In this document: piece by piece, positions 5,085 through 7,298 of the stretch | Layout: each line of letters opens with the position of its first letter | Numbering within the stretch: position 1 is the first letter of the stretch | Origin: Candidatus Zhuqueibacterota bacterium | GTDB lineage: Bacteria; SM23-31 | NCBI GenBank assembly: GCA_022562855.1 | Contig: JADFON010000020.1 | Span: forward strand, 1-12,872 | Length of the DNA stretch: 12,872 nt | Direction: 5' to 3' | The notes under the pieces: generated by a model | The model's database searches: none | Told to the model about the DNA's origin: nothing | The model's input: only the letters and a program-made list of their open reading frames with translations | Position numbers and translations under genes: made by a program

Positions 5085-5789
5085 ATGAATAATGCAAAAT
5101 ATTTAAATTCGATTACCCTCCTTTTGGTAATTCCCCTTATTTTTTCTTTATCGTGCAGCAGAACACAACAGTTGCAGGAGTCCGGTATTGTAACAAATCC
5201 TGACGAACCGGCTACTGAACAGCCTTATACTATATCCGATGAACTTCTGCCGATACCTCCCCCTGGAGCCAATGAAACTGAAATGTTCAAAGTACAAATA
5301 CTGGCGCTTGAGAGGTATGAAAACGCTGTAATTGAAAAAATAAGATTACAGGAGTTTACAGAAAAAACAATATTTCTTGTTAATGAAAGAAACTTATGGA
5401 AACTTCAAATTGGAGATTTTTCCATGAGGAGCGAGGCTGAAGCAGAAAAAAATACATTAAAAAGTCTTGGATGGGCGGACGCTTTTCTAATTCGATATAG
5501 AATTTCTGTTAACCCGGATGTCCCGCAAAATGAAGAGGATTCAGCCAACACGGCAATTTACTACACTGTTCAGTTGATCGCTACTACAAACAAGACCGAA
5601 GCGGAAAACATGCAGATAAATCTCAATATATTGAACATCTCGGATGTTACTTTGATTAAAGAGGGCGACTTCTGGAAAATTCGTGTCGGTAGTTTTGAAG
5701 ACATAAATGAAGCGACTATTTTACGGAACAGGATGCGTGAAATGGGTTTTGATGATTCCTGGATTACCAAACGAATAAAAAGGCAATAG
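5085..5789 (+). CDS. Probable lipoprotein with two SPOR domains
   Basis: 234 residues. A hydrophobic stretch (10-22) ends in FSLSC with Cys24, giving a plausible but imperfect lipobox (Ser at -3, Leu at -2), then SRTQQ. After a proline-rich spacer come two SPOR-like repeats at about 67-140 and 158-232. Each begins with a VQI/VQL strand (KVQILALE, TVQLIATT) and carries a WKLQIGDF or WKIRVGSF strand followed by a helix, the standard SPOR pattern. SPOR domains bind glycan strands stripped of stem peptides, often at division sites. The gene starts 10 bases after the second tonB stop, so the two are very probably co-transcribed, which suggests an envelope protein that links to peptidoglycan near the TonB machinery. 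That link is inference. Confidence 0.82.
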   Translation: MNNAKYLNSITLLLVIPLIFSLSCSRTQQLQESGIVTNPDEPATEQPYTISDELLPIPPPGANETEMFKVQILALERYENAVIEKIRLQEFTEKTIFLVNERNLWKLQIGDFSMRSEAEAEKNTLKSLGWADAFLIRYRISVNPDVPQNEEDSANTAIYYTVQLIATTNKTEAENMQINLNILNISDVTLIKEGDFWKIRVGSFEDINEATILRNRMREMGFDDSWITKRIKRQ

Positions 5790-5899: not shown

Positions 5900-5959
5900 A
5901 GGAACCTATTGGATTTCGGGTTTGTTGCTATCTTGTGGATGTGGGTTCCTCATTTTTTT
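5900..5959 (+). promoter_or_regulatory. Inverted repeat with T-run in the sigma-factor leader; possible ECF-type promoter inside
   Basis: AGGAACC (5900-5906) pairs with GGTTCCT (5944-5950); three more pairs (two of them G-U) extend the stem to 10 bp around a 31-base loop. Two bases later come seven T (5953-5959), 13 bases before the sigma start codon. It resembles a long-loop terminator or attenuator. The left arm also contains GGAAC (5901-5905), with GTTG at 5924-5927 after 18 bases, which resembles the GGAAT-N18-GTT promoters of SigR-type sigma factors. Either reading is tentative. Confidence 0.35.
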
Positions 5960-5972
5960 GGGTACAAATTAA

Positions 5973-6551
5973 ATGTGGGATTCTATACAAGAAAAACAGA
6001 AGGCGTTTGAAGAAGAAGCGGTAACGCATATGGATGCGTTATACAACTCTGCTCTTAAACTAACATATAACGAAGATGACGCGAAGGACTTAATACAGGA
6101 GTCTTACTTTAAGGCGTTCCGGTTTTTTGAACAGTTTGAGCCGGGTACAAGCTGTAAAGCCTGGCTGTTCAAGATTTTAAAAAATACATTTATAAATAAG
6201 TATAGAAAGAAAGTCAAACAACCTGAACAGGTTGATTTTAATACTGTCGAGTCGTTTGTAGATTTGATCAAAGACAAAAATTATGACGAGGATGAAGCTC
6301 TCGATGATGGAATAGTAAACAGTTATTTAAGTGATGAAATCAACGAAGCGTTGACAAAACTGTCCTATGAATTCAAAATGGTACTCATATTGTCTGATGT
6401 CGAAGGGTTCTCTTATAAAGAAATAGCTGATATTATGGATTGCCCGATAGGGACTATTCGCTCGCGTTTATCAAGAGCCAGGAAAATGATGTTCAAAAAC
6501 TTGCTAAAATACGCAAAAAAAGAGGGGTATTACCAGGAGGAGAAAGACTAA
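5973..6551 (+). CDS. ECF-family RNA polymerase sigma factor, SigR/SigH-like
   Basis: 192 residues, with only sigma regions 2 and 4. Region 2 is at about 19-80: the NEDDAKDLIQESYFKAF helix at 33-49 and then KAWLFKILKNTFINKYRKK at 62-80, the -10 recognition segment, which closely resembles the KAWL...NTFIN.YRK run of actinobacterial SigR/SigH. Region 4 is at about 119-175, with a helix-turn-helix in FSYKEIADIMDCPIGTIRSR (146-165) followed by LSRARK. The linker is acidic (NYDEDEALDD, 103-112). The stop codon overlaps the ATG of the next gene by one base (TAATG), the usual coupling of an ECF factor with its anti-sigma factor. A GGAAC...GTTG element upstream may allow autoregulation. The trigger is probably envelope or thiol stress, inferred from the partner. 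No clear Shine-Dalgarno is seen. Confidence 0.92.
   Translation: MWDSIQEKQKAFEEEAVTHMDALYNSALKLTYNEDDAKDLIQESYFKAFRFFEQFEPGTSCKAWLFKILKNTFINKYRKKVKQPEQVDFNTVESFVDLIKDKNYDEDEALDDGIVNSYLSDEINEALTKLSYEFKMVLILSDVEGFSYKEIADIMDCPIGTIRSRLSRARKMMFKNLLKYAKKEGYYQEEKD
6535..6541 (+). promoter_or_regulatory. Ribosome binding site that fixes the anti-sigma start
   Basis: AGGAGGA lies 9 bases before the ATG at 6551, inside the last codons of the sigma gene. It supports 6551 over the longer in-frame start at 6440, which lacks such a site and would add 37 residues encoded within the sigma gene. Confidence 0.8.
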
Positions 6552-7231
6552 TGATTTGTTCAACTGTAAATGAACTTATTGCACCGTATATCGATCAGGA
6601 ATTGTCGGAGGAAACGCTTATCAAAATGAATGAGCACTTCGAGAAGTGCAATTCTTGCAGAACCGAACTGAAAGCGCATATGGGAGCGCACAGACTTCTC
6701 GCTGAAAAACTTGAACATACTCCGGTAAATGACGATGTCAGGGATAAGATAATTGCAAAAATGCGAGAACAAGAGACTGCTTCTCCGAATTGGTTGTTTA
6801 AGAAAATTCACATTCCACTGCGACCGGTAACCGGTTTTGCCATTGCTGCTTCGCTGATATTCGGGATATTATTTATCGGAGATATTGTCGAATTTACGAA
6901 CCCGGATAATACTATAAGACCTATCGTTATTAATTCGGGTATGTCTCCTGTTATGCCGGACGGACTTCTCGCAACAGTCACCGGAGAAGTTGTCTGTGTC
7001 GGATGCTATATCAGGGAAAACTATAATGCCGAACATGACTGCGATATCAAAGGTCATATATTCGGTTTTCAATCAAGCGATGGCAATTTGTGGTCATTCA
7101 CTCACAACGAGCAAGCTGAAAACTTAATAAAGATCGATGAAGTTACCGGGAAAAAAGTAAAAATTGAAGGCAAATTATATTACAGCGCTCATTTTATTAA
7201 CATTGACCATTATTCCATTGTAGAAAACTGA
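6551..7231 (+). CDS. Membrane-anchored zinc-type (ZAS) anti-sigma factor with Cys/His periplasmic domain
   Basis: 226 residues. The cytoplasmic N-terminus is an anti-sigma domain with Cys3, His29, Cys33 and Cys36: H-x3-C-x2-C preceded by a Cys 26 residues before the His. The spacing equals the zinc ligands of RsrA (Cys11, His37, Cys41, Cys44), whose oxidation releases SigR. A membrane helix follows at about 93-113. The C-terminal part (about 137-226) would be periplasmic; it contains GEVVCVGCY (145-153), His162-Asp-Cys164, a GHIFGFQSSDGNLWSF strand pair (168-183) and GKKVKIEGKLYY (200-211). This resembles a small domain seen in uncharacterised proteins with a conserved Cys-Tyr then His-x-Cys pattern, possibly an OB-like fold; I cannot name it. 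Presumed role: it holds the upstream sigma factor until a redox or metal signal. Final gene of the plus-strand half. Confidence 0.87.
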   Translation: MICSTVNELIAPYIDQELSEETLIKMNEHFEKCNSCRTELKAHMGAHRLLAEKLEHTPVNDDVRDKIIAKMREQETASPNWLFKKIHIPLRPVTGFAIAASLIFGILFIGDIVEFTNPDNTIRPIVINSGMSPVMPDGLLATVTGEVVCVGCYIRENYNAEHDCDIKGHIFGFQSSDGNLWSFTHNEQAENLIKIDEVTGKKVKIEGKLYYSAHFINIDHYSIVEN

Positions 7232-7259: not shown

Positions 7260-7295
7260 AAACCTGCCTGATTCGATTATCGGGCAGGTTTTTTT
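7260..7295 (+). terminator. Strong intrinsic terminator after the anti-sigma gene
   Basis: AAACCTGCC (7260-7268) pairs with GGCAGGTTT (7283-7291), and further pairs extend the stem inward to about 7272/7279, leaving a six-base loop. Seven T follow at 7289-7295. It lies between convergent genes; read on the minus strand it lacks a good T-run, so it mainly serves the plus-strand unit. Confidence 0.9.
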
Positions 7296-7298
7296 ATG

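Follow-up and report, generated by a model that had tools for sequence, protein, structure and literature searches.

The SigR/RsrA pair of Streptomyces is the textbook cytoplasmic thiol-stress switch, and anti-sigma factors that combine a zinc motif with a membrane helix are already known. The locus described here lies in a window of 12,872 nucleotides, one contig (G000:C403) of a 2.5 Mb draft genome. It shares with SigR/RsrA, and with SigH/RshA of Mycobacterium, the ligand spacing of the zinc motif, a SigR-like sigma factor, a GGAAT/C-N18-GTT promoter motif and candidate targets in thiol-redox metabolism. RsrA and RshA, however, are soluble and sense in the cytoplasm, whereas the window protein is membrane-anchored and carries a CxxC-containing OB-fold domain outside; the zinc ligands, moreover, are dispensable in its relatives.

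Membrane association of a zinc-type anti-sigma factor is also seen in RslA of M. tuberculosis, a redox-sensitive protein in which the redox change takes place within the cytoplasmic motif itself (PMC2877774); an outside OB-fold domain with a CxxC, as in the window protein, is not described for RslA in that source. The joining of a zinc-type anti-sigma domain to a separate C-terminal domain recalls ChrR of Rhodobacter sphaeroides, whose C-terminal domain is a metal-binding sensor; ChrR, in contrast, is soluble and uses a cupin for sensing singlet oxygen, while the window protein is predicted to carry an OB-fold past its membrane helix. An envelope OB-fold with cysteines is known from the C-terminal OB domain of NlpE in the Escherichia coli Cpx pathway, where the cysteines report periplasmic redox state (review PMC6737893). 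NlpE, unlike the window protein, is an outer-membrane lipoprotein signalling to a histidine kinase, and it has in common with the window domain the fold only (Z 6.8), with no sequence relation found. By analogy, the logic of the window anti-sigma factor resembles that of ChrR and NlpE and appears to belong to neither. Three features had no precedent in the libraries and the mostly non-subscription literature searched: a CxxC-bearing OB-fold on the outside, its partnership with a SigR-like sigma factor, and loss of the inside site.

The reading preferred here, given a probability of roughly 60%, is that of an ECF switch which responds to thiol-redox or thiol-metal state in the envelope by way of a sensor domain not yet catalogued. 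A SigR-related sigma factor appears to have been rewired to an extracytoplasmic cysteine domain, with predicted targets that maintain thiols outside the cytoplasm. The locus offers a candidate envelope redox sensor for uncultured phyla and a starting point for assigning a function to an OB-fold family that is widespread but not annotated.

Organisation of the locus

The forward strand of the window encodes a SigR-like ECF sigma factor of 192 residues (5973..6551) and a membrane-anchored anti-sigma factor of 226 residues (6551..7231), whose start overlaps the sigma stop by one base in the sequence TAATG. An intrinsic-terminator-like hairpin followed by a T run can be read in the sequence 3' of the anti-sigma gene (7260..7296, forward strand), and an Rfam search of the window gave no match. 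The anti-sigma factor was aligned within a set of 28 proteins, itself included, in which the outside domain is fused to an anti-sigma domain (fused proteins hereafter), drawn from three phylum-level groups. A sigma gene is adjacent in 25 of these 28 loci, and the other three have none within the stretch examined.

Immediately upstream of the sigma gene lies a gene for a SPOR-like envelope protein (5085-5789). The same arrangement occurs at L002-L005, and thus in 5/5 phylum genomes compared. The downstream neighbour varies among these five, being a squalene/phytoene synthase gene in three and a DnaA-like gene in two. At two related loci the anti-sigma frame is broken: in L003 (G001:C121, SM23_31, from the window's family) a frameshift separates the zinc-type domain from the membrane helix, and in L071 (G452:C95) an in-frame TAA interrupts the OB domain; either assembly error or decay could account for these breaks. 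At L074 (397-1746, G411:C170), sigma and anti-sigma factor share a single open frame of 450 codons, possibly a natural sigma/anti-sigma fusion.

The sigma factor is related to SigR

The window sigma factor contains Pfam Sigma70_r2 and r4_2, and its best NCBIfam model is TIGR02947 (SigH_actino) at 182.8 bits, below the curated cut-off of 251.55. The first-pass annotation had called it SigR-like from region 2, and this top-ranking match, even if under the cut-off, supports a SigR-like assignment. Sigma factors paired with fused anti-sigma factors score 160-417 bits to the window sigma, as against 24-97 bits for those beside ordinary zinc-type anti-sigma factors in the first search. On the sigma tree, the fused label requires 4 changes, compared with 24 in shuffles, and falls into two clades. 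SigR-like sigma factors also occur with zinc-type membrane anti-sigma factors that have a different outside domain (L134, L135, L136, L138, L139 and L146); a protein of that general type at L092 resembles DUF3379 below the cut-off.

The cytoplasmic zinc-type domain and the membrane helix

The N-terminal part of the anti-sigma factor matches Pfam zf-HC2 over residues 3-37 (30.1 bits, cut-off 22.2) and carries the motif C3-x25-H29-x3-C33-x2-C36 (6557..6658, forward strand); zf-HC2 is likewise matched by 23 of 25 fused relatives at E values up to 0.1. In the structural model, this region forms helices at residues 3-14, 20-32 and 34-53 with pLDDT above 90. Judged by motif and sigma adjacency together, the protein is a class I zinc-type (ZAS) anti-sigma factor. 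The ligand spacing noted in the first-pass annotation is present exactly as described, but its use as a mark of RsrA goes too far: the spacing is that of the general zinc-type motif and does not make the protein an RsrA, and the RsrA model TIGR03988 gives 36 bits against a cut-off of 62.5. The ChrR model TIGR02451 gives 16.2 bits against 124.5.

A single membrane helix follows at about residues 92-115 (6824..6895, forward strand), as defined by hydropathy, which peaks at 2.24 over residues 95-113, and by the model helix; the one helix proposed earlier is thereby confirmed. Lysine and arginine number 3 in the 20 residues preceding the helix and 1 in the 20 following, and the C-terminal domain is taken to lie outside. 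With a helix and a further domain beyond it, the protein departs from the solubility of RsrA. It is nothing unusual for a zinc-type anti-sigma factor to have a membrane helix, and a zinc motif is present in about 48% of the class I anti-sigma factors that are membrane-bound (PMC7406223).

Six of the 28 fused proteins (L074, L075, L077, L079, L081 and L082) have none of the four cytoplasmic zinc ligands left, and every one of these six retains the outside CxxC. In the maximum-likelihood tree, well-supported branches force two independent losses. These counts bear directly on the earlier proposal of sensing on both sides of the membrane, in which the cytoplasmic zinc site would read thiol stress as in RsrA, the outside site would read envelope thiols or metals, and either would release sigma. 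Such a two-sided sensor would fit the intact state of both sites, seen in the window protein and its counterparts from three further genomes of the phylum, as well as the finding that the sigma factor and the zinc-type domain are most SigR/RsrA-like by NCBIfam. Against this, relatives that keep the outside site have twice dispensed with the inside ligands, a structural role has been proposed for the zinc motif in mixed groups (PMC7406223), and ChrR senses through its C-terminal domain rather than its zinc-type domain (PMC2877774). Since the outside CxxC is kept in 28/28 and the inside ligands are lost in 6/28, the protein is probably not a two-sided sensor, and the earlier proposal, now quite improbable, is not supported. 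Rather, the cytoplasmic zinc site looks structural and the outside site looks like the sensor. With two cysteine sites in one protein, which of them controls sigma is directly testable.

The outside domain is a predicted OB-fold with an invariant CxxC

The extracytoplasmic domain spans about residues 138-224 (6962..7222, forward strand). AlphaFold2, supplied with 42 aligned sequences, predicts it with pLDDT 92.2 and pTM 0.80, and strands at positions 10-20, 42-46, 51-54, 73-81 and 86-94 of the domain model give the five-stranded OB-fold topology. Matches in the PDB are mostly OB-folds of many functions (best Z 7.7, with none of those aligned reaching Z 8) and include the envelope proteins NlpE, YgiW, CusF/SilF and CcmE; they support the predicted OB-fold, not a function. 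A search with the full-length model likewise returned mainly OB-fold proteins, with RsiW at rank 46 and none significant.

By sequence, the C-terminal domain falls outside every Pfam and NCBIfam family. DUF4431, DUF5818 and DUF5074 were considered as names and set aside, as they give only sub-threshold partial matches. A PDB sequence search with the domain alignment yielded only chance, zinc-ribbon-like matches and did not recover NlpE. A profile search of the window's phylum (sampled by six genomes), a second phylum and wider genomes found relatives in the window's phylum, across 386 genomes, and in 24 of 82 genomes of the second phylum (that of G195); a third phylum-level group contributes one fused case (G352, L047), and viral contigs yielded no relative. 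Homologues lacking conserved C-terminal cysteines had been named beforehand as a refutation, and the invariant CxxC is the favourable outcome of that test.

The CxxC (C149 and C152; 6995..7006, forward strand) is present in 28/28 fused proteins; in the wider alignment of 42 domain sequences, C149 is found in 42 and C152 in 38. Because most of the fused proteins are only 15-26% identical to the window protein, this conservation is well beyond chance. A third and a fourth conserved position extend from C164 to H169 (7040..7057, forward strand). Among the 28 fused proteins, position 164 is occupied by Cys in 7 cases and by His in 15; among the 42 domain sequences it is Cys in 21, with His in many others. 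H169 is present in 27 of 28 fused proteins, the remaining one having a shifted His, and in 40 of 42 domain sequences. The residues named in the first-pass annotation (C149, C152, H162 and C164) all exist, but H162, being His in only 4 of 42 domain sequences, was rejected as a ligand; the conserved histidine is H169, and the set becomes C149, C152, C164 (Cys or His) and H169. In the model, C149 lies at the end of strand 1, C152 at the start of the next helix, and C164 and H169 in the stretch preceding strand 2, so that clustering of the four residues is plausible.

Distant stand-alone OB relatives at L062, L050, L053 and L052 are fused to HMBD (heavy-metal binding) or YHS domains, a hint that other members of this OB family may have functions connected with metals.

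Genomic context of related loci

In a phylum other than the window's, genes directly 3' of fused anti-sigma genes encode stand-alone OB-domain proteins at L040 (1685-2167), L063 (1062-1466) and L064 (1474-1884), and the order at these three loci is sigma, anti-sigma, stand-alone OB protein and DsbD. At L066 the order is sigma, anti-sigma and DsbD, and in the sister sigma clade of the same phylum, DsbD directly follows sigma at ten loci with no intervening anti-sigma gene. Unfused domain proteins also occur near ECF genes: one adjoins the ECF sigma and anti-sigma genes of an Armatimonadetes genome (L090), and in a Desulfocapsa genome (L092) a gene for a DsbD_TM protein separates another from an ECF sigma/anti-sigma pair.

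In the stand-alone copies at L040, L063 and L064, Glu replaces the second Cys of the CxxC (VCxxEEM), while the later Cys and His are kept; these close copies show that the fold can do without the Cys pair. Their persistence is compatible with the outside cysteines forming a structural zinc site or a structural disulfide, in which case the domain would sense some other thing, such as a protein or a ligand, both of which OB-folds frequently bind. This explanation is very improbable, given that no feature of the fused domain is better conserved than the Cys pair and that the genes found as operon partners and promoter targets belong to thiol-redox metabolism. The operon and promoter context instead favours thiol or metal sensing outside.

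Promoter motif and candidate targets

A predicted SigR-type autoregulatory promoter, GGAAC-N18-GTT, lies 47 nt before the sigma ATG (5901..5926, forward strand). It agrees with the published SigH/SigE consensus GGAAT/C-N18-19-GTT (PMC10012870) and with the SigR/SigH-type consensus given in PMC5005934. Upstream of the sigma genes of fused systems, GGAAY-N18-GTT occurs at 12 of 26 loci against 0.17 expected, and other spacings from 13 to 22 show no comparable excess in these 26 regions. As judged from the sequence motif, the systems have a SigR/SigH-type promoter with predicted autoregulation.

A pattern search for GGAACY-N16-TGTT in five genomes of the phylum found 67 sites, compared with 37 for a control pattern of shorter spacing. 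Sites 20-150 nt before an open reading frame number 17/67 as against 0/37 (Fisher p 5e-4), and intergenic sites 37/67 as against 3/37 (p 9e-7). The 17 sites, a count that omits a BCP peroxiredoxin site in G005 (L182) with an uncertain start codon, include 3 sigma genes, 3 CcdA-TlpA operons and 4 AhpC/TSA or thioredoxin-fold proteins, together with one gene each for a stand-alone OB-domain protein and for cation efflux, HMA and DUF438 proteins. The window genome has only two convincing sites, before its own sigma gene and before one thioredoxin-fold gene. G002 encodes three further sigma factors of the same kind, so motif targets there may belong to a paralogue.

The sites preceding the cation efflux and HMA genes are among the points that would suit a pure metal sensor, in which Cu, Ag, Zn or Hg would bind directly to the outside site and metal load, not disulfide formation, would be the signal. 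The C/C/(C or H)/H set resembles a metal site, the fold matches include CusF and SilF, which are metal chaperones with an OB-fold, and the distant stand-alone relatives have HMBD or YHS partners. This is nevertheless unlikely: the predicted targets are mostly thiol-redox genes, DsbD is the recurrent operon partner, and the fold matches are generic OB-folds with Z below 8.

Proposed mechanism

In the preferred thiol-redox or thiol-metal switch, the anti-sigma factor would use its helical N-terminal domain to hold the SigR-like sigma at the inner membrane face, and its cytoplasmic zinc site would be mainly structural. The CxxC, the third Cys/His and the histidine of the outside OB-fold domain would form a thiol or thiol-metal site. 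Oxidation, reduction or a change of metal at this site could alter the state of the domain, and sigma might then be released through conformational change or proteolysis of the anchor. The freed sigma would upregulate its own gene together with genes that keep thiols and disulfides balanced outside the cytoplasm, namely CcdA/DsbD electron import, TlpA-like thioredoxins and peroxiredoxins. In favour of this switch count the unequal conservation of the two sites, the high-confidence fold, the DsbD operons, the unfused copies beside ECF genes and the SigR-type motif before sigma and target genes; against it count the variable third ligand position, the stand-alone copies with Glu for C152, the mere two motif sites of the window genome and the G002 paralogues. 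The fuller proposal is put forward tentatively, at slightly under even odds: a distinct ECF system that spans at least two sigma clades and three phylum-level groups. Its uncatalogued OB-fold domain would use the outside CxxC to monitor how thiols and disulfides are balanced in the envelope, and would thereby drive a SigR-like regulon comprising genes for DsbD/CcdA, TlpA and peroxiredoxins, of which several likely encode selenoproteins.

Thioredoxin-fold genes with in-frame TGA codons

Three thioredoxin-fold (AhpC/TSA) genes located 3' of a SigR-type motif have an in-frame TGA precisely where the first Cys codon of the CxxC would stand, in the contexts W-TGA-V-C, W-TGA-P-Y-C and W-TGA-G-F-C. 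These genes, at L180/L212 (G000:C234:10252-11397, minus strand), L208 (G002:C138) and L210 (G005:C271), likely encode selenoproteins. The L210 gene contains a second TGA, inside its DsbD_N-like part.
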